Positions 6,403 to 27,718 of a stretch of DNA of 64,000 nt are shown here, piece by piece. The position numbers and the translations under genes are program-made. Source of the stretch: Aggregicoccus sp. 17bor-14 (lineage in GTDB: Bacteria > Myxococcota > Myxococcia > Myxococcales > Myxococcaceae); NCBI RefSeq assembly GCF_009659535.1, contig NZ_VJZZ01000002.1:248001-312000 (forward strand). The letters run 5' to 3'. Under the pieces are notes generated by a model. It saw only the letters and a program-made list of their open reading frames with translations. It was not told where the DNA came from and did not search any database. Position 1 is the stretch's first letter. Every line of letters starts with the position of its first letter.

Positions 6403-7455
6403 ATGTCGCCGGAAGAGCTGGGCCTGGGTGAGCGGGAGCGCGAGGTGCTGCGCGCGGTCGTCCAGGAGTACATCGCCACGGGCGGCCCCGTGGGCAGCCA
6501 GCAGCTCACCCGCCGGGCCGAGTTCGACGTGTCCTCGGCCACGATGCGCAACGTGCTCGCGGACCTGGAGGCGCTCGGCTACCTGGAGAAGCCGCACACC
6601 AGCGCGGGCCGCGTGCCCACCGACCGCGGCTACCGCTTCTACGTGGACACGCTGGTGCGGCTGAAGGACCCGGGGCCGCGCGAGCGCGAGCTCATCGAGC
6701 AGGGCATCGCGCAGGAGGCCGGGGTGGGAGAGACCCTGCAGGAGGCCTCGAAGATCCTGCACTCGCTCACCCGCCACGCGGGCGTGGTGCTCACCCCGCG
6801 CGCGGCGGCCACGCTGCTGCAGCGGCTCGAGTTCGTGCGCCTGCGCGAGAACCGCGTCCTCGCGGTGCTGGTGGGCGCGGGCGGGCAGGTGCAGAACAAG
6901 GTGCTCACGGTGGACTTCGCGCTGAGTGCGGACGAGCTGGTGCGCGCCTCCAACTACCTGAGCGAGCTCTTGCGCGAAGTCCCGCTGGAGCGCGCGCACG
7001 AGCGCATCCGCACGGAGATGGAGCAGGAGCAGGCGCTCTACAACGCGCTCACCGCGAAGGCGCTGAAGCTGGGCGTGGCGGCAACCGAGGCGAGCAGCGA
7101 GGGCAGCGCGCAGCAGGAGGAGCGGGTGCTCATCGAGGGCACGGGCTCGTTCCTGGAGAGCCCGGAGTTCGCGGACGTGGAGCGCATGCGCGCGCTGTTC
7201 CGGGCGCTGGGCGAGAAGCACAAGCTGCTCGCGCTGCTGGACCGGGTGCAGCGCGCGAAGGAGATGCAGATCTTCATCGGCACGGAGAGCGAGTTCTCCA
7301 GCGCGCCGGACGTGACGGTCATCGCGAGCCCCTACGGCACGCGCGACACGGTGCTGGGCACGGTGGGCGTCATCGGCCCCACCCGCATGAACTACCAGCG
7401 CATCATCCCGCTGGTGAACTTCACCGCGCAGGTGCTGGGCCGGGTGCTCGAGTAG
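6403..7455 (+). CDS. hrcA: Heat-inducible transcription repressor HrcA
   Basis: The protein of 350 residues is close to the usual HrcA length. The N-terminal winged helix includes VLRAVVQEYIATGGPVGSQQ and the typical EKPHTSAGRVPTDRGYRFYV segment (about residues 60-82). It is followed by the GAF-like and inserted dimerization domains, ending with IGPTRMNYQRIIPLVNF. HrcA normally represses groE and dnaK operons by binding CIRCE and needs GroEL for activity. Here it is not next to grpE-dnaK, which lie 32 kb away, and no CIRCE sequence was found at hrcA or at grpE. Its targets are therefore probably elsewhere. A GTG-like region precedes the ATG at 6403, and a GGGAG-like ribosome site lies just upstream. 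Confidence 0.95.
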   Translation: MSPEELGLGEREREVLRAVVQEYIATGGPVGSQQLTRRAEFDVSSATMRNVLADLEALGYLEKPHTSAGRVPTDRGYRFYVDTLVRLKDPGPRERELIEQGIAQEAGVGETLQEASKILHSLTRHAGVVLTPRAAATLLQRLEFVRLRENRVLAVLVGAGGQVQNKVLTVDFALSADELVRASNYLSELLREVPLERAHERIRTEMEQEQALYNALTAKALKLGVAATEASSEGSAQQEERVLIEGTGSFLESPEFADVERMRALFRALGEKHKLLALLDRVQRAKEMQIFIGTESEFSSAPDVTVIASPYGTRDTVLGTVGVIGPTRMNYQRIIPLVNFTAQVLGRVLE

Positions 7456-16919: not shown

Positions 16920-17942
16920 TCATCCGACCCGCGCTCGCTCCACCATGAAGCGCACCGCGTCGTTCATGTGCTCCGGGAGGAGCCGCGTGCCGGGGTGGGC
17001 ACGGGCCCAGACGCGGAACACCTCGTCGGCGAAGCCCTGGCCCACGGAGCGCACGCCCCGGAAGTCGAGCACCACCTCCTCGAACTTCTCCATTCCGTGG
17101 AGCAGGCGCTTCGCCTCCGAGCGGGAGACGAAGTCCACGCCCACCTCGAAGAGCTTGATGAAGGCGCGCGAGCGCATGAACGCAAAGTCTTCGTTGCTGT
17201 AGGCATCGAAGACGGCCTTGAGCTCGCGCGAGGTGTCCGTGGCGAGCTCCGCGCGCACGCGAGTGCCCTGGCGCGCAGGCTGCAGCTCTCCGAGCCCCAC
17301 GTCCCCGCGCACGTTGTCGGTCCACCAGCGCAGCGCGCCGCTCTCGACGAGCAGCACGTCCACCGCCTTCGACGAGAAGAACAGGCCCTGCCCGGTGTGG
17401 GCCTCGGGCGCCGTGGTGACCTTGCCCTTGGAGAGCTCCTGCAGCGCCTCGAAGTGGTCGCGCAGGTGCAGCAGCCGGCGCGCGTGCTCGAAGATGCCCT
17501 CGCCCGCGTCCACGACCTCGAATGCCACGCGCTGCGGCTCCTGCTCGAGCAGGACCTCCACCTCGGCCGCACCCGAGTGGTCGATGGCGTTGTTGAGCAG
17601 CTCGGTGAAGGCAAAGTGGAGGATGTCCATGGCGCGCTGGGGAAGCTGGCCGAGCCACGGCGCGCGCCGCTCGAGGTCCTTCCACACCTGGTCTTCCTGG
17701 AGACCCGCAGTGAGCAGCGTCAGCTGCAGCCCGGAGGGCCGCGCGCGCCGGTAGTGGGTGCCGCGTCCTGCGCCCTCCCGCGTCAGGAGCCCTTCCGAAG
17801 CCAGCGCGCTCAGGTGGGCATGTGCGGCTTGTCGGGAGATGCCAGCTCGGCTTCCCACCTCGCCGCTGGTGACCCGGGCCTGCTGTGCCAGGAGCGCATC
17901 CACCGTCTGCTTGACGATTTCCCTGACGTTCGGCCGCCTCAT
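16920..17942 (-). CDS. HTH-ATPase-DUF4325 (STAS-like) regulatory protein
   Basis: The protein has 340 residues in three parts. The N-terminus (about 1-70) is a winged helix-turn-helix (VTSGEVGSRAGISRQAAHAHLSALASEGLLTREG cut into shorter motifs; key residues SRQAAHAHL). The middle (about 90-225) is a GHKL ATPase of the RsbW/HATPase_c type with the N box FTELLNNAIDHSG and DAGEGIF. The C-terminus (about 240-330) has KRLLHGMEKFEEVVLDFRGV and SVGQGFADEVFRVWAR, matching DUF4325, a STAS-like domain. Such fusions combine an anti-sigma-type kinase and an antagonist-like domain with a DNA reader. It is convergent with dinG. Four identical 9-base sites lie at its start, so it probably controls itself. 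The name and target are unknown. Confidence 0.86.
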   Translation of the reverse strand: MRRPNVREIVKQTVDALLAQQARVTSGEVGSRAGISRQAAHAHLSALASEGLLTREGAGRGTHYRRARPSGLQLTLLTAGLQEDQVWKDLERRAPWLGQLPQRAMDILHFAFTELLNNAIDHSGAAEVEVLLEQEPQRVAFEVVDAGEGIFEHARRLLHLRDHFEALQELSKGKVTTAPEAHTGQGLFFSSKAVDVLLVESGALRWWTDNVRGDVGLGELQPARQGTRVRAELATDTSRELKAVFDAYSNEDFAFMRSRAFIKLFEVGVDFVSRSEAKRLLHGMEKFEEVVLDFRGVRSVGQGFADEVFRVWARAHPGTRLLPEHMNDAVRFMVERARVG

Positions 17943-19081: not shown

Positions 19082-19618
19082 CTACAGCTCGCGCGACATG
19101 AGCAGCCGCAGCTTGCCGCTCTTCTTGGACACCACGGTGGCCACGGTGGTGAAGCCCGCGGTGCGGTAGAAGCTCACGGCCGGCGCGTTCGCCGGGTCCA
19201 CGCGCAGCGCCAGCGTCTTGCGGAACATGTCGCGCGCGACCTGGATGGCGTGGTTGAGCAGCAGCACGCCCAGGCCCTTGCGGCGCAGCTCCGGCTTCAC
19301 CACGATGTTGCGCATGTAGGCGGCGCCGGGCACCGGCCCGTCGCGCTCGATGGTCACGTAGCCCACGGCCTGCCCCTGCAGCTTCATCACGTGGATGTAG
19401 GGCCGCAGCTGGGTCAGCGCCTGCAGGCTCTCCTCGGGGCCCTCACCGCGCGACTTCCACGGCTCGCTCGAAGCCCGCAGCGCGGCCACGGTCGGCATGT
19501 CCTCGTCCGAGGGGGGCGCGAACTTGGCGGCGGTGGCCAGGTCGTTGGGCAGGCTGGCCAGGTCCAGCAACGGCACCGTGCTCAGCTCCACGCCGGACTC
19601 CACCCGCTTCATCGTCAT
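19082..19618 (-). CDS. GNAT-family N-acetyltransferase
   Basis: The protein has 178 residues from the ATG at 19618 (MTMKRVESG); a longer frame to 19696 is less likely. The acyl-CoA-binding core is present: AAYMRNIVVKPELRRKGLGVLLLNHAI (Q/RxxGxG/A-type loop RRKGLG), then DPANAPAVSFYRTAGF. The N-terminal 60 residues are variable. The substrate is unknown; the group includes acetylation of proteins, amino acids and antibiotics. It is the first gene of a leftward pair with the TPR-like protein and diverges from the GTPase operon across a 332-base intergenic region. Confidence 0.85.
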   Translation of the reverse strand: MTMKRVESGVELSTVPLLDLASLPNDLATAAKFAPPSDEDMPTVAALRASSEPWKSRGEGPEESLQALTQLRPYIHVMKLQGQAVGYVTIERDGPVPGAAYMRNIVVKPELRRKGLGVLLLNHAIQVARDMFRKTLALRVDPANAPAVSFYRTAGFTTVATVVSKKSGKLRLLMSREL

Positions 19619-19950
19619 TCGGTGTGCTCCTTCAGGCCTTCTCGTCAGACGGTGTACGCCCGCTCGCTCTGCCGTGGATCCTACCGCATCCACCACGGGC
19701 TGGAACCCTCCTCAACCCTGCGCACGGCCCGGTCATTCCGGACCTTGGCAGTCCACCCGAAGCCCACTTCCGCGCACCCGAATGACGGGCCGTGGACGCT
19801 CGCCCCCCACCGGCGGACGAGCGAGCGCCGGGGGAGGCCCGGGCTGCCTGGGCATCGGAGTCCAGGGACTGTATAACCGCGGACGTCGTCCGGTGCCGCG
19901 CCTCCCGCGCGCTCCGGGCGCAGGGCAGCCCGGGGCGGGACAGAACTCTC
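19619..19950. other. 332-base divergent intergenic region between the GNAT and the GTPase operon
   Basis: No convincing gene is seen here. It holds the second copy of the 16-base repeat TGTACGCCCGCTCGCT (19653-19668), a long imperfect inverted repeat (GGCCCGGTCATTC at 19726-19738 and GAATGACGGGCC at 19780-19791), and a good -10 box TATAAC (19872-19877) for the GTPase gene, followed by the near-palindrome GGACGTCGTCC (19881-19891). A weak -35 may be at 19848-19854. A start codon-rich frame continues through this region but has no domain. Confidence 0.5.
19653..19668 (+). repeat. 16-base dispersed repeat, copy 2
   Basis: TGTACGCCCGCTCGCT, identical to the copy at 9421-9436, lies 35 bases upstream of the GNAT start. 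A partial copy, GAGCGGGCGTA in the opposite orientation, is at 12780-12790, just upstream of the small lipoprotein gene. All three are near start codons of leftward genes. Confidence 0.4.
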
Positions 19951-20691
19951 GTGCAACTCAATCACGCGCAGCGCGAGCTCACGGTCAAGGTCGTCTATTA
20001 CGGCCCGGGCCTGAGCGGCAAGACGACGAACCTGCAGCAGATCCACGCGCGCACGCGCAGCGAGGTGCGTGGCCGCCTGCTCACCGTCGAGACGCACGAC
20101 GACCGCACCCTGTTCTTCGACCTGCTGCCCGTCTTCTTCACCACCGAGGCCGGCTTCAAGGTGAAGGTGAAGCTGTTCACCGTGCCCGGCCAGGTCATCC
20201 ACAACGCCACCCGGCGCATCGTGCTGCAGAACGCGGACGCGGTGGCTTTCATCGCGGACAGCCGCCGCAGCGCCGGCAAGGACAACAACGCGTACTGGAA
20301 GAACCTGCAGGAGAACATGCGCGAGAACGGGCTGGACCCCGCGCACGTGCCGGTGGTCATCCAGTTCAACAAGCGCGACCTGCCGGACACCAAGAGCGAC
20401 GCGGAGATCGAGGAGACGCGCAAGAAGGGCCGCGAGGCCGTGGTGGGCGCGGTGGCCATCCGCGGCGAGGGCGTGCTGGAGACCTTCCACGCCGTGCTGC
20501 AGGGCGCCTACCGCCAGCTGGACGCGCGCCACCAGCTGGGGCGCAACCTGAACCTCACCGAGGGCGAGTTCCTCGCGCAGATCTTCCGCCAGATGGACCT
20601 GGCCGGCACGCAGCTCGCGAGCCGCTACCCGCCGCGCCGCCCCACCGGCGCGACGCCGCCGCCCGTGGCCGGCCGCGGAGGCGTGCGTTGA
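19951..20691 (+). CDS. MglA-like Ras-family small GTPase
   Basis: The protein has 246 residues from the GTG at 19951. The P-loop is YYGPGLSGKTTNLQQIH, with the MglA-type switch region DDRTLFFDLLPVFF. G3 is VPGQ, with Thr-Val in place of the canonical Asp as in MglA, and G4 is NKRDLP. Bacterial MglA sets cell polarity and drives gliding and pilus reversal when in the GTP state, with MglB as its GAP. This protein is about 50 residues longer than MglA at the C-terminus (RQLDARHQLGRNLNLTEG and a Pro-rich end). No mglB is adjacent. It may be a paralogue with its own partner. It overlaps the following histidine kinase gene by four bases, so the two are probably functionally linked. Confidence 0.88.
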   Translation: MQLNHAQRELTVKVVYYGPGLSGKTTNLQQIHARTRSEVRGRLLTVETHDDRTLFFDLLPVFFTTEAGFKVKVKLFTVPGQVIHNATRRIVLQNADAVAFIADSRRSAGKDNNAYWKNLQENMRENGLDPAHVPVVIQFNKRDLPDTKSDAEIEETRKKGREAVVGAVAIRGEGVLETFHAVLQGAYRQLDARHQLGRNLNLTEGEFLAQIFRQMDLAGTQLASRYPPRRPTGATPPPVAGRGGVR

Positions 20692-22217
20692 GCGCCCCCT
20701 CGGACAGCGCCGCCGCCGCGCTCGTGCCCGTGCATTCGCCGACGTCCACTTCAACGCCCGTGCCGCGGCGCGAGAGCGTGCTGCAGAAGAAGCTCGGGCT
20801 GCAGGACATGCTGGACCTGCCCACCTTCCAGGAGGTGGTGAAGAGCTTCAGCGACCTGTACGGCGTGGGCATCAAGGTGCTGGACGCGCGCGGCAACAAG
20901 CTCGCGGACGTGAAGGTGGGCAACGGGGACTTCTGCGGCTCGGTGTTCAGCCACGCGGAAGGGCGCCACCGCTGCACCGCCACCGTGGCGCGGGTGAAGG
21001 ACGGGCCGCTCGAGCCGGTGCTCGGCGCGCGCACCCCGCTCACCGAGGTGCCCGGCGCGCTGGGCATGCTCACGCTGCCCTGCTTCACCGGCCTGCGCTA
21101 CCTGGTGATGCCGGTGCGCTGGGAGGGCGACGTGCTGGGGCGCACCATCTTCGGCCCCTTCACCCCGGACGAGCTCAAGGACTTCCCGCCCACGCTGCAG
21201 GACCTCGCGGGGCTGGACCTGGACCTCGCCCGCGTGCACCTGGGCAAGGTGCGCCGCGCGCACGAGCGCACGGTGGCGCAGGTGCTGGTGCACTTCAGCC
21301 AGGTGCTCGGCACGCTCATCGCCGCGGGGCAGAAGACCTACCTCACCAGCCAGCTGCACATCGAGGCCACGCTCGAGACGAACCGCGAGCTCGAGGAGCA
21401 GAACGCGCGGCTCGAGGGGCTCAACACCCGGCTGAAGGAGCTGGACCGGCTCAAGAGCAGCTTCCTCGCCACGGTGAGCCACGAGCTGCGCACGCCGCTC
21501 ACCAGCATCATCGGCTACTCGGAGATGCTCAGCGAGGGGCTCGCCGGCGCGCTCAACCCCGAGCAGGCCGAGTACGTGCGCACCATCGTGGACAAGGGGG
21601 AGACGCTGCTCAAGCTCATCTCCTCCATCCTCGACATCAGCCAGATCGAGGCGGGCAAGGTGCGCCTCGCCTTCGAGCCGGTGGACGTGGGGGAGCTGCT
21701 GCAGAACGCGCTCACCAGCGTGGCGCCGCAGGCCCAGCGCAAGGGCGTGCAGCTCAAGGTGCGCCGGCCGGAGGGCCCCCAGCCGCGCGTGGGCGCGGAC
21801 CGCGACAAGCTGCGCCAGGTGGTGGTGAACCTGCTGGCCAACGCGGTGAAGTTCACGCCCCAGGGCGGCGCCGTGAGCGTGCAGCTGAGCGAGCAGGGGC
21901 CGCAGCCGGAGCTGGGGCGCGAGGGCTACCGCATCCTCGTGGAGGACAGCGGGGTGGGCATCCCCTCGGACCAGTTCGACCGCATCTTCCAGAGCTTCTA
22001 CCAGGTGGACAACAGCAGCACGCGCGAGTTCGGCGGCGCGGGGCTGGGGCTCGCCATCGTGAAGAGCTTCGTGGAGGGACACGGCGGCGTGGTGCGGGTG
22101 GCGAGCGAGCTGGGCCACGGCGCGCGCTTCACCGCGGTGCTCCCGGTGCGCCCGCCCATGCCCTCGCAGGGCCCGGTGCTCATCGCCCCGCCGGTGGTGG
22201 AGCCGGACCGCTTCTAG
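20688..22217 (+). CDS. PocR-domain sensor histidine kinase
   Basis: The TTG at 20688 gives 509 residues, overlaps the GTPase stop by four bases and has GGAGG (20677-20681) six bases upstream, so it is a well-supported start. A PocR-type sensory domain covers about residues 30-200 (LQDMLDLPTFQEVVKSFSDL, Cys-rich NGDFCGS, RHRCTATV, TLPCFTGL). A short coiled coil follows (ETNRELEEQNARLEGLNTRL), then HisKA with [18 protein letters not shown] (His265) and HATPase_c with DSGVGIP and GGAGLGLAIV. There is no membrane span. PocR domains bind small metabolites, and conserved Cys in them can suggest redox or metal sensing. No response regulator is next to it. Confidence 0.9.
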   Translation: MSAPSDSAAAALVPVHSPTSTSTPVPRRESVLQKKLGLQDMLDLPTFQEVVKSFSDLYGVGIKVLDARGNKLADVKVGNGDFCGSVFSHAEGRHRCTATVARVKDGPLEPVLGARTPLTEVPGALGMLTLPCFTGLRYLVMPVRWEGDVLGRTIFGPFTPDELKDFPPTLQDLAGLDLDLARVHLGKVRRAHERTVAQVLVHFSQVLGTLIAAGQKTYLTSQLHIEATLETNRELEEQNARLEGLNTRLKELDRLKSSFLATVSHELRTPLTSIIGYSEMLSEGLAGALNPEQAEYVRTIVDKGETLLKLISSILDISQIEAGKVRLAFEPVDVGELLQNALTSVAPQAQRKGVQLKVRRPEGPQPRVGADRDKLRQVVVNLLANAVKFTPQGGAVSVQLSEQGPQPELGREGYRILVEDSGVGIPSDQFDRIFQSFYQVDNSSTREFGGAGLGLAIVKSFVEGHGGVVRVASELGHGARFTAVLPVRPPMPSQGPVLIAPPVVEPDRF

Positions 22218-23395: not shown

Positions 23396-24403
23396 GTGAA
23401 GCGCGCCCCCGCCACTGCCGGAGAGTTCGAGCTCATCGACGCCTTCGTCGCGTGCTTCCCGCGCGCGCGCACGCCGCGGGGCCCGGGGGACGACTGCGCG
23501 CTGCTGCCGCCCTCGCGCCGCGCGCTGTGCGTCACCACGGACGCGGTGGTGGAGGACGTGCACTTCCGGCGCGCCACCTTCCGCCCCGAGGACATCGGGC
23601 ACAAGGCGCTCGCGGTGAACCTCTCGGACCTCGCGGCCATGGGCGCCGAGCCCGCCTGGTTCGTGTGCGCGCTCGCGCTGCCGCCGGACTTCGGCCGGGA
23701 GGCGTGCGTGCGGCTGGGGCGCGGCATGGCCCGGCTCGCGCGCGAGAGCGGCATCGCGCTCGTGGGCGGCAACGTGACGCGCGCGCGCGAGCTCTCCGTC
23801 ACGCTCACCGTGGCGGGCCACGCGCCCGCGCGGCCGCTGCTGCGCTCGGGCGGGCGCGCAGGAGACCTGCTCTACGTGAGCGGGCGGCTGGGGGAGGCGC
23901 GCCACGGCCTGCGCGAGCTCGAGGCCGGGGTGCGCCGGGGCGCGGCGGTGGAGCGCCAGCGGCGGCCCACCCCGCGGCTCGCGCTGGGGCGGCTCGCCGC
24001 GCGCTTCGCCTCTGCCGGAATGGACCTGTCGGACGGGCTCGCCCAGGACCTCGGGCACCTCGCGCGCGCCTCCCGCGTGGCGGCGCGCGTGGTGCCCGCG
24101 TGGCTGCCCGTCTCGCCTGCGCTCGCGCGGGTGCTGGGCCTCGAGCGCGCGCGCGCCGAGGCGCTCGCGGGCGGCGAGGACTACGAGCTGCTGCTCGCCG
24201 TGCCGCCGGCCCGGGCGCGCGCCTTCGAGCGCGCGTGTGGGCGGGGGGGCCACACCGTGACCTGTGTGGGTGCGCTGGCGCGGGGGCCCGCGGGCCGCGT
24301 GATCCTGGAGGGTTCCCGAGGCGCACCGCTGCGTGACGCGCTCGGTCGCCCGGTCGCGCTGCCCGCCGGGCACGACCACCTGGCAGGCAGGCCCGGGCGG
24401 TAG
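23396..24403 (+). CDS. thiL: Thiamine-monophosphate kinase
   Basis: The protein has 335 residues from the GTG at 23396. It contains GPGDDCALL, TDAVVEDVHF with the catalytic acids, AVNLSDLAAMGAEPAWF, GGNVTRA, GMDLSDGLAQDLGHLARAS and GGEDYELLLAVP, which are the ordered motifs of the ThiL/PurM-type ATP-binding fold. ThiL phosphorylates thiamine monophosphate to the active cofactor thiamine diphosphate in the cytoplasm. No other thiamine synthesis gene is near. AGAGG sits 8 bases before the start, overlapping a TAGAGG hexamer that could be a -10 box, so ordinary and near-leaderless initiation are both possible. It may be the last gene of the GTPase operon. Confidence 0.93.
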   Translation: MKRAPATAGEFELIDAFVACFPRARTPRGPGDDCALLPPSRRALCVTTDAVVEDVHFRRATFRPEDIGHKALAVNLSDLAAMGAEPAWFVCALALPPDFGREACVRLGRGMARLARESGIALVGGNVTRARELSVTLTVAGHAPARPLLRSGGRAGDLLYVSGRLGEARHGLRELEAGVRRGAAVERQRRPTPRLALGRLAARFASAGMDLSDGLAQDLGHLARASRVAARVVPAWLPVSPALARVLGLERARAEALAGGEDYELLLAVPPARARAFERACGRGGHTVTCVGALARGPAGRVILEGSRGAPLRDALGRPVALPAGHDHLAGRPGR

Positions 24404-24432: not shown

Positions 24433-24586
24433 CGGAGCCCCTCGTCTCTCACCGCTGCATCCGCAGAGGCCCTCCCTCCCCGTGCGCCGCCCCCTTCGCG
24501 ACGATCTCCCCTCCGGCCTGCCGACGCGCCGTGAGCCTGTCCAGCGCCTGCTGCGCGTCGTCGAGGCGCCCGGCCAGGGCCGCGAC

Positions 24587-25831
24587 GTGTCGCTGCACCT
24601 CAAGATCCTCACCGGCTACGTGGTGCTGGGTGCGGCGCTCTCGGCGGCCTTCCTCCTCTCCGAGGACCTGGGCGTGGCCCTGCGGCTCACGCTCGCCGGC
24701 GTCATCACCCTGGTGCTCGCGCTCGCGCTGCCCAGCCTGCTCGCGCGCGTCACCCGCGTGCGCGTGCTCAGCCGCTCCGCCTTCGAGATCTCCCAGGGAG
24801 ACCTCTCCAAGCCGGTGCACACCCCGTCCGCCGGCATCGCGCGCGACGAGATCGACGAGCTCACCGGCGCCATCAGCAAGATGCAGGAGAACCTGCGCGA
24901 GCTGGTGGGCAAGATCCAGGACACCGCCAAGAGCGTGGCGGACACCGCGCGCGACCTGAGCCGCTCCGCCGAGAACGTGAACGGGTCCACCGAGGAGGTG
25001 GGCTCCTCCATGGACAAGATCGCGACCGGCGCCGCCGCCCAGCGCCAGCTGGTGGTGCAGGCCTCCAAGGTCATCACCGAGATGGCCGGCAGCATCCAGC
25101 GCACCGCCACCTCGGCCGAGGACGCGACCCGCGCCTCCGCGGACACCAGCATGTCCGCCGAGGACGGCAGCAAGGCGGCGCGGCTCGCCGGCGAGAAGGT
25201 GAAGAAGGTCTTCAACCGCATCGAGGACGCGAGCCAGCAGGTGTTCGCCTTCGGCGAGAAGACGCAGGAGATCTCCAAGATCGTGGACGCCATCACCCAG
25301 GTGGCCCAGCAGACGAACCTGCTCGCGCTCAACGCGACGATCGAGGCGGCGCGCGCGGGCGAGTACGGCCGCGGCTTCGCGGTGGTCGCGGACGAGGTGC
25401 GCAAGCTCGCCGAGAGCGCCGGTCGCTCCGCGGAGCAGATCTCCAAGCTCGCGCGCGACATCTCCGGCCAGTCCACCTCGGTGGTCAGCGCCATGAAGGA
25501 GGGCATCGCGGAGCTCGAGGAGGGCCGCGAGGACCTCACCGCGATCGTGCGCTCCATGGGCGCCATCACCGACACCGCGCGCAAGGGCGCGGACAAGGTG
25601 CACCTCATCTCCGACAGCGCCCGCGAGCAGCTCAAGGGCAGCGAGGAGATGGTGAAGGCGATCGAGGAGATCAGCCGCGTGGCGCGCGACAACGCCGGCT
25701 CCACCGAGGCCATCCAGGCCGTCATCCAGGAGCAGGTGGGCGCGGTGAGCCAGATGACCGGGCTCGCGAGCGAGCTGACCAACCTCTCCGTGGAGCTGCA
25801 GAGCGTGGTGCGCAGCTTCCGGCTCGGCTAA
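24587..25831 (+). CDS. Methyl-accepting chemotaxis protein without periplasmic domain
   Basis: With the GTG at 24587 (VSLHLKIL) the protein has 414 residues; a GTG at 24482 would add 35 basic residues. Two membrane segments ([20 protein letters not shown] and [19 protein letters not shown]) are separated by only a few residues, so there is no periplasmic sensor. A HAMP domain (about 45-100) and a long helical signalling domain follow, with the conserved hairpin tip [20 protein letters not shown] and [14 protein letters not shown]. Its shortness and structure resemble DifA of Myxococcus xanthus, which signals with type IV pili to control exopolysaccharide. The match is by architecture and context only. 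cheW, cheY, cheA and cheC follow after three intervening genes. Confidence 0.92.
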
Positions 25832-26914: not shown

Positions 26915-27199
26915 TCAGCGTGAGGCGTTGTGAGGGCCGCGCAGGTTCGGACCTCGCAGGTTCGGACCTCGCAGGTTTGGATCAATAGGGGGCGGCCCGC
27001 CGCGCTTGCGCAGGATGCGCACGGTCCAGAAGAGGACGAGGACCGCGATGGCCGCGACCCAGAACCACCAGATGGGGCCGCCGTGGGTGCCGCGAGGGTT
27101 TCCGCCGCGGTCCTGGGCGAGCGCGAGCAGCGGCGCGAGCCAGGCGGTGACGAAGAGGAGGGGAGCAGGGAGGGGAGAGGTGCGGGGAGAGGGGTGCAT
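26915..27199 (-). CDS. Small membrane protein with PNLRG tandem repeats
   Basis: The protein has 94 residues from the ATG at 27199. A signal-peptide-like start (APLLFVTAWLAPLLALAQD) and a membrane span (GPIWWFWVAAIAVLVLFWTV) are followed by a basic segment (RILRKRGGPPP) and three NLRGP pentapeptides. The repeats come from 15-base units (GCAGGTTCGGACCTC, 26941-26970, plus a degenerate third), so they may change in number. The function is unknown. It is divergent from cheW. Confidence 0.6.
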   Translation of the reverse strand: MHPSPRTSPLPAPLLFVTAWLAPLLALAQDRGGNPRGTHGGPIWWFWVAAIAVLVLFWTVRILRKRGGPPPIDPNLRGPNLRGPNLRGPHNASR

Positions 27200-27295
27200 G
27201 TCCCGCACCGTGGGCACGGGTCCCTCCGCCCACAACCCCGACCCGCGCAGTGGGGCCGGCGGGCGGCCGCGCGCTTCTGCTACAACGTGGCCCCT

Positions 27296-27718
27296 GTGAG
27301 GCACGTCATCTTCCGCGTGGAGAAGGAGCGCTACGGGCTGCCGCTCGCGGCGGTGCGCGAGGTGGTGGTGCCCCCCGCGCGCTTCAGCCGGGTGCCGCGC
27401 GCGCCCCCGGCGGTGCGCGGGGTGATGAACCTGCGCGGGCGCGTGGTGACGGTGGTGGAGCTGGGCCCGCTGCTGGGCCTCTCCGAGGGCAGCACGCCGC
27501 CTGCTCGCGTGGTGCTGCTGGACCGGGGTCGCCGCGACCTGGGGCTGCTGGTGACGGAGGTGGAGGGGGTGGAGAGCATCGAGCGGGTGCTCAACGCACC
27601 GGGTCGAGCCGTGCCCGCGGTGCGCGGCGTGGCCCGCGTCAAGGGGCTGGCGGTCACGGTGCTGGACCCCGAGGGAATCGACGGGGCGGTCGTCGGCTTG
27701 TTCGCCCCCCAGAAGTGA
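27296..27718 (+). CDS. cheW: CheW-like coupling protein
   Basis: The protein has 140 residues from the GTG at 27296 (VRHVIFRVEKERYGLPLAAV). It is one CheW domain: YGLPLAAVREVV, VRGVMNLRGRVVTVVELGPLLGL, ARVVLLDRG, LGLLVTEVEGVESI, RGVARVKGLAVTVLDPEGI. CheW links receptors to CheA in signalling arrays. The long in-frame upstream extension from 26930 has no domain and is likely not translated. A TACAAC hexamer ends 9 bases before the GTG and there is no clear ribosome site. It begins the cheW-cheY-cheA-cheC row and probably serves the MCP upstream, comparable with difC. Confidence 0.88.
   Translation: MRHVIFRVEKERYGLPLAAVREVVVPPARFSRVPRAPPAVRGVMNLRGRVVTVVELGPLLGLSEGSTPPARVVLLDRGRRDLGLLVTEVEGVESIERVLNAPGRAVPAVRGVARVKGLAVTVLDPEGIDGAVVGLFAPQK

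Follow-up and report, generated by a model that had tools for sequence, protein, structure and literature searches.

A histidine kinase gene kept beside the gene of a probable SofG ortholog across most of the Myxococcota

Described GTPase-kinase gene sets and the locus studied here

Gene sets that bring together a histidine kinase and a small GTPase are already known in bacteria, and the locus described here differs from them in four respects: the GTPase is of the SofG type and belongs to Group 1, the set has two genes only, its sensor is soluble and changeable, and its composition is constant across the phylum. The primary paper on SofG itself is reportedly that of Bulyha et al. 2013. In the actinobacterial conservon, the histidine kinase CvnA is encoded with CvnB, CvnC and the GTPase CvnD, and PMC4316618 relates that the GTPase has been proposed as the output of a set that holds no response regulator; the same text mentions that, for Group 1 Rup GTPases, a signalling protein, sometimes a histidine kinase, is encoded beside the small GTPase. 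SofG of Myxococcus xanthus is presented there as an orphan GTPase of 239 aa whose cognate GAP had not been identified at that time (PMC4316618), and two further papers localise it with the bactofilin BacP and assign to it the sorting of two pilus ATPases, PilB and PilT (PMC5703909; PMC4372379). Statements about MglB are in conflict: according to PMC4316618, MglB is no aid to GTP hydrolysis by SofG, whereas in PMC11016934 and PMC7949163 MglB is stated to bind SofG or to act as its GAP. In the open-licence literature on SofG, MglA-PocR and MXAN_6702-6706 we found no account of a kinase partner, and the MXAN matches concern the GNAT acetyltransferase.

The window, by which we mean the whole stretch of 64,000 nucleotides analysed from Aggregicoccus sp. 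17bor-14, carries the GTPase-kinase pair and the neighbours listed in Table 1. Like the conservon, the locus is a conserved set that joins a histidine kinase to an MglA-family GTPase without a response regulator, and a Pfam scan of the neighbouring window proteins gave neither a receiver domain nor a response regulator. It differs from the conservon in consisting of two proteins, in the absence of an MglB homolog from the locus, in its apparently soluble PocR kinase, where the conservon has a membrane HAMP kinase, and in the active site of the GTPase, which is of Group 1 here and of Group 2 there. The Rup neighbourhoods are more distant in kind, since their GTPase belongs to another family, without the G3 glutamine, and is found with a partner of another architecture. 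With SofG of M. xanthus the GTPase shares a length close to 239 aa, the lack of a coupled MglB, the arginine by the G2 threonine and the GNAT neighbour; the literature, however, links SofG to BacP and to PilB/PilT, whereas the partner candidate at this locus is a kinase. As regards the sensor, the kinase resembles other PocR-domain sensors in matching PF10114 above the cut-off and in its several cysteines, which an unrelated kinase (L281) has as well, but other PocR proteins of the same genomes lie at separate loci and match the PocR family, not closely this kinase.

Compared with the MglA/MglB module, the GTPase fold and active site are the same, but the window GTPase is C-terminally extended, has no roadblock protein at its locus and is changed on the side that faces MglB in MglA. 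The original prediction had seen in this locus an MglA whose customary partner position was taken by a sensor kinase. The pair is real and no MglB (Robl_LC7) gene lies at the locus; the GTPase, however, is not MglA, since the genome keeps a separate mglBA on contig C4, where its only PF03259 match adjoins mglA, and the window GTPase is a distinct paralog, 43-44% identical to MglA. A replacement of MglB by the kinase on MglA was for this reason rejected.

Table 1. Position of the pair, its parts and its neighbours in the window
Feature	Position	Strand	Basis
GNAT acetyltransferase, divergent neighbour	19082..19696	-	Pfam; matches MXAN_6704
Small GTPase of the MglA family (Group 1 type), 246 aa; probable ortholog of SofG	19951..20691	+	GTG start at 19951, stop TGA 20689-20691
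C-terminal extension of the GTPase, residues ~195-246 (helical conserved part to ~215, variable tail after)	20533..20688	+	alignment and fold model
Ribosome-binding site GGAGG, 6 nt ahead of the kinase TTG	20677..20681	+	sequence
Four-base stop/start overlap TTGA, GTPase/kinase	20688..20691	+	sequence
PocR-domain histidine kinase, 509 aa, apparently soluble	20688..22217	+	TTG start at 20688
PocR sensory domain, residues 40-212; Cys83, Cys96, Cys132	20805..21323	+	PF10114
Linker between PocR and the phosphoacceptor domain, one long helix (residues 193-282); conserved around H224/E226	21264..21533	+	fold model
HisKA phosphoacceptor domain, His265	21453..21656	+	Pfam
HATPase_c catalytic domain	21798..22151	+	Pfam
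ThiL-like (AIRS) gene, kept as a neighbour by about half of the order loci	23396..24403	+	Pfam
Methyl-accepting chemotaxis protein (MCPsignal), neighbour	24482..25831	+	Pfam
CheW-like protein, neighbour	27110..27718	+	Pfam

Elsewhere in the window (16920-17942, minus strand), a helix-turn-helix, a HATPase and a STAS-like DUF4325 are combined in one chain, which is unusual for a regulator.

Features of the GTPase and of the kinase

The GTPase matches the Pfam family Arf (26.9 bits against a cut-off of 22.3), its solved sequence relatives in the PDB are MglA structures, and its fold model (pLDDT 89) has the best PDB match in M. xanthus MglA (6h17, TM 0.89 by target length). Before the GTPases and the kinases were aligned, sequences that were near-identical or incomplete were removed. 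Among the 87 aligned GTPases, the P-loop GxxxxGK[T/S] (G18, G23, K24, T25), the arginine adjoining the G2 threonine (R52-T53), the G3 motif TVPGQ (T77, P79, G80, Q81, with V78 in at least 90% of sequences) and the G4 motif NKxD (N140, K141, D143) are present and, apart from V78, invariant, and the same holds for the active-site residues R52, T53, D57 and Q81 taken together (87/87). An arginine in this place is what defines Group 1 in PMC4316618. The chain runs about 50 residues past the MglA end. This extension begins with a conserved part (F207 occurs in at least 90% of the 87 sequences), modelled as two helices, 196-200 and 204-212, in a block of pLDDT 93-96; the last 25 residues or so of the chain are variable. 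Subfamily-specific changes (V61, F63, V71, K72, K74, H84 and T87) lie at or close to the strand by which MglA faces MglB, the MglB-facing positions being taken in part from PMC6785124.

The length of the GTPase, its GNAT neighbour and its map position together make it very probable that it is the ortholog of Myxococcus SofG. Four of the six Myxococcus-type orthologs checked are 239 aa long (L046, L048, L049, L050), the two others 241 and 242 aa (L043, L047), and the window protein has 246 aa. We take the locus tag of SofG to be MXAN_6703 and, presuming that gene numbers run to about 7,514, expect its map position at 6703/7514, that is 89.2%; in the complete genome G099 the ortholog lies at 8,374,900 of 9,316,447 bases, or 89.9%. 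The divergent neighbour of the window GTPase encodes a GNAT acetyltransferase, as does MXAN_6704 according to two papers (PMC4048283; PMC11928866). Another paralog of the same genome (L248) was considered as SofG and rejected, its frame running for about 370 residues from the P-loop region, far from 239. This third MglA-family GTPase of the genome (L248, 4917-6038) carries about 180 extra residues at its C-terminus, and a gene that is DUF4388/PATAN-like by eye is found close by.

In the kinase, PF10114 (PocR) is matched with 70.1 bits against a gathering cut-off of 23.9, and HisKA and HATPase_c were also found. The fold model (pLDDT 90, pTM 0.65) has no evident membrane segment, and the kinase is apparently soluble; searched with Foldseek, the model matched kinase cores and whole kinases, nothing PocR-specific. 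The H, N, G1 and G2 boxes are intact, with H265, N385, D420, G424, G450, G452 and G454 kept in 84 of 84 relatives (the kinase alignment omits L275, whose true start overlaps the GTPase end, and L092, which has an unusual frame). Judged by these residues, both the GTPase and the kinase look catalytically complete. In the linker helix, H224 is found in 80 and E226 in 77 of the 84 relatives; read as a strict motif, however, the histidine segment was discarded, the motif as written fitting just 56 of the 84.

The reading frame of the kinase is open back to 19497, and a start near 20688 is supported by the relatives: start codons stand at the overlap position in 81 of the 103 pairs measured, the overlap being exactly four bases in these, and a match of at least 4 bases to the anti-Shine-Dalgarno sequence lies upstream of the kinase in 74 of the 103, against 25% of control windows within the GTPase gene. 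The four-base overlap, the kinase's own GGAGG with its TTG start and the roughly 50 extra C-terminal residues of the GTPase, all of which had been noted in the original prediction, were confirmed in the sequence or borne out by the comparison with MglA. What it had said of conserved cysteines in the PocR domain fared less evenly. Conserved they are (Cys83, Cys96 and Cys132 are kept in 80, 79 and 81 of the 84 relatives), but they do not look special: an unrelated PocR kinase (L281, one example) also has several in the region, and the triad is altered in the GTPase-linked kinases of L223, L229, L244, L137 and L138. They look like ordinary PocR features.

Occurrence and divergence of the pair in the phylum

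The GTPase-kinase pair is old in the Myxococcota and conserved across most of the phylum. With a clear ortholog defined by at least 225 bits, the GTPase was found in 108 of the 117 genomes searched in the order of the window's genome (Myxococcales); in two more (G033, G036) a partial ortholog adjoins the kinase, and seven have paralogs only. We read 98 neighbourhoods, namely 68 order loci, drawn from the 110 order genomes with an ortholog, and 30 loci elsewhere in the phylum. The original prediction had called for a check of conservation, with separation of the two genes in most relatives as the adverse outcome. The check was run: the kinase directly follows the orthologous GTPase on the same strand in 97 of the 98 loci (kinase core directly downstream in 67/68 within the order and in 30/30 in the rest of the phylum), and the 98th is censored by the end of its contig. 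In a fragment that stands outside this count (L236, G104), the end of the GTPase likewise adjoins the kinase. The way in which loci were chosen decides what each set tests. The order loci were mostly chosen by the GTPase; 26 of the 30 loci outside the order were chosen by a PocR relative, so that in these it was the presence of the GTPase that was tested, and the other four were chosen by the GTPase in genomes without a PocR hit, so that the presence of the kinase was tested. In all four loci from these PocR-negative genomes the gene that directly follows the GTPase encodes a histidine kinase, the sensor of which is diverged or shortened.

Other neighbours are kept less strictly. ThiL directly adjoins the kinase in 37/68 order loci and 5/30 other loci, GNAT is in place in 36/68 and 0/30, and the PIG-V-like gene of the window was found in 1/68 and 0/30. 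The two genes of the pair are also nearly co-absent, six of the seven order genomes without a GTPase ortholog lacking a PocR relative too. The seventh, G020, the assembly of which is 69% complete, has a lone, distantly related PocR kinase that no GTPase adjoins, and two other genomes of its family have neither the GTPase nor the PocR kinase. In this lone kinase (L239, 3749-4996) the linker helix is, by eye, shorter by roughly 45 residues, and the missing part includes the segment of the conserved histidine. Such a loss in a kinase without a neighbouring GTPase fits with a use of the linker for coupling, as far as one kinase from a 69% complete assembly goes. Fifteen genomes from elsewhere in the phylum that gave no PocR hit were also examined: the GTPase and an adjacent kinase occur in four, a contig end in one (G154) leaves a fragment of the GTPase, and the ortholog is absent from ten; eight further phylum genomes without a PocR match lie outside this count. 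Beyond the phylum, a search for the subfamily in the group of G181 gave 0 of 199 genomes at E 1e-56, in a search run without a positive control, and among 18 genomes of other groups a near-subfamily match was met in G168 only, the locus of which (L138) has an adjacent kinase.

The pair persists where the PocR sensor has diverged or shrunk. In one genus (g3; L240, L241, L088-L090) the PocR domain is shorter and strongly diverged, with about 32% identity to that of the window in L240 and L241, and the kinase core and the gene order are kept. Since the sensor varies most and the kinase core is better kept, PocR is not the defining feature of the pair. The GTPase and the kinase core diverge in step, with partial correlations of 0.65, 0.65, 0.69 and 0.56 in overlapping sets of 45, 31, 31 and 18 loci (neighbours held constant), and no such agreement is seen between the GTPase and PocR (-0.25, -0.17, -0.05 and -0.01 in the same order), a result to be taken as a pattern and not as a test since pairwise distances are non-independent. 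Mutual information between the two proteins, computed on 78 pairs (Neff 58), put 11 of the top 60 residue pairs on PocR, which makes up 124 of the 356 kinase columns used, and the remainder favoured the kinase core and the linker; relatedness is uncontrolled in this measure, which is too shallow to name contacts.

Possible roles of the kinase

The explanation that accounts best for these observations, and one that we hold to be somewhat probable, is a dedicated two-protein module in which the kinase is the missing upstream partner of SofG and acts on the GTPase. The GTPase and the soluble histidine kinase would be made from one message; the PocR domain would sense a cytoplasmic small molecule or a redox state, the class of ligand being read from the name of the domain only; the sensed change would travel along the one long helix to the kinase core, and the core would contact the GTPase and set its nucleotide state or its docking site. 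Via the GTPase, if this is SofG, the kinase might govern how the pilus motors PilB and PilT are sorted. Our confidence is moderate as regards a physical contact between kinase and GTPase, and weaker as regards control that runs from the former to the latter. The kinase is the best candidate for the regulator of SofG because both proteins look catalytically complete, no response regulator was met among the scanned neighbours and the MglB-facing side of the GTPase is changed; with the conservon proposal as a precedent, the GTPase would be the output of the kinase. If MglB does bind SofG or act as its GAP, then SofG already has a GAP, and this counts against the explanation. A tentative form of the same idea, possible but not one that we would expect, is that the kinase directly sets the nucleotide state of SofG, as a GAP, as an exchange factor or by phosphorylation, that the GTPase replaces a response regulator, and that an exchangeable sensor tunes the placement of pilus motors to metabolism.

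Adjacency and overlap could also arise from co-expression alone, that is from a message shared for reasons of dose or place by proteins that make no contact. Four-base overlaps are common in bacterial operons, and ThiL, a metabolic gene without evident link to the pair, also stays near in many loci; a mere sharing of the message is nonetheless improbable in view of an adjacency that holds in 97 of 98 loci (one censored) while other neighbours drift, of the near co-absence, and of a GTPase divergence that tracks the kinase core specifically. The divergence of the sensor can be turned round as well, for a sensor that shrinks while the pair persists is what one would expect if it were the GTPase that supplied the signal. 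GTP-bound SofG might thus recruit or switch the kinase, for instance to a subpolar bactofilin site, and the kinase would then phosphorylate a distant response regulator; the catalytic residues of the kinase, all kept in 84 of 84 relatives, are as expected if phosphotransfer matters, and with no response regulator among the scanned neighbours a distant one may be the target. We nevertheless regard this reverse direction as rather unlikely: the kinase has no known phosphotransfer partner, and the missing response regulator of the conservon was read the opposite way, with the GTPase as the output, in PMC4316618. Farther still from what we expect, and very improbable, is a chemosensory branch in which the pair shares its output with the MCP and CheW, and adapts that output or relays it to polarity control. 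Downstream of the pair and in its orientation, an MCP is indeed encoded in 32 of 68 order loci and 10 of 30 others, with CheW adjoining it in 25 and 7, but many loci are without MCP or CheW within the stretch read, and no CheA was noticed beside the pair. The order MCP then CheW downstream of the pair recurs in other classes of the phylum.

A module in which the kinase acts on SofG is the reading that we prefer. Kept beside SofG phylum-wide, the kinase is a specific and testable candidate for a regulator of a GTPase that, in PMC4316618, is without an identified cognate GAP and on which the statements concerning MglB conflict. If the module works as proposed, it would constitute a sensor kinase with a Ras-like GTPase as output and no response regulator in Gram-negative bacteria, an arrangement that the conservon only suggests, and it would link a chemical signal to cell polarity.

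Two loci of the acidobacterial genome G181 show further arrangements of MglA-type GTPases. The GTPase of L312 has a comparable extension at its C-terminus; after it, in a shifted frame, comes a HisKA match too weak to reach the cut-off (E 0.0014), and a duplicated segment is present. This is possibly a GTPase-kinase fusion, or else an assembly fault. In L322 the frame of the GTPase continues for about 270 residues that are, by eye, sensor-domain-like.
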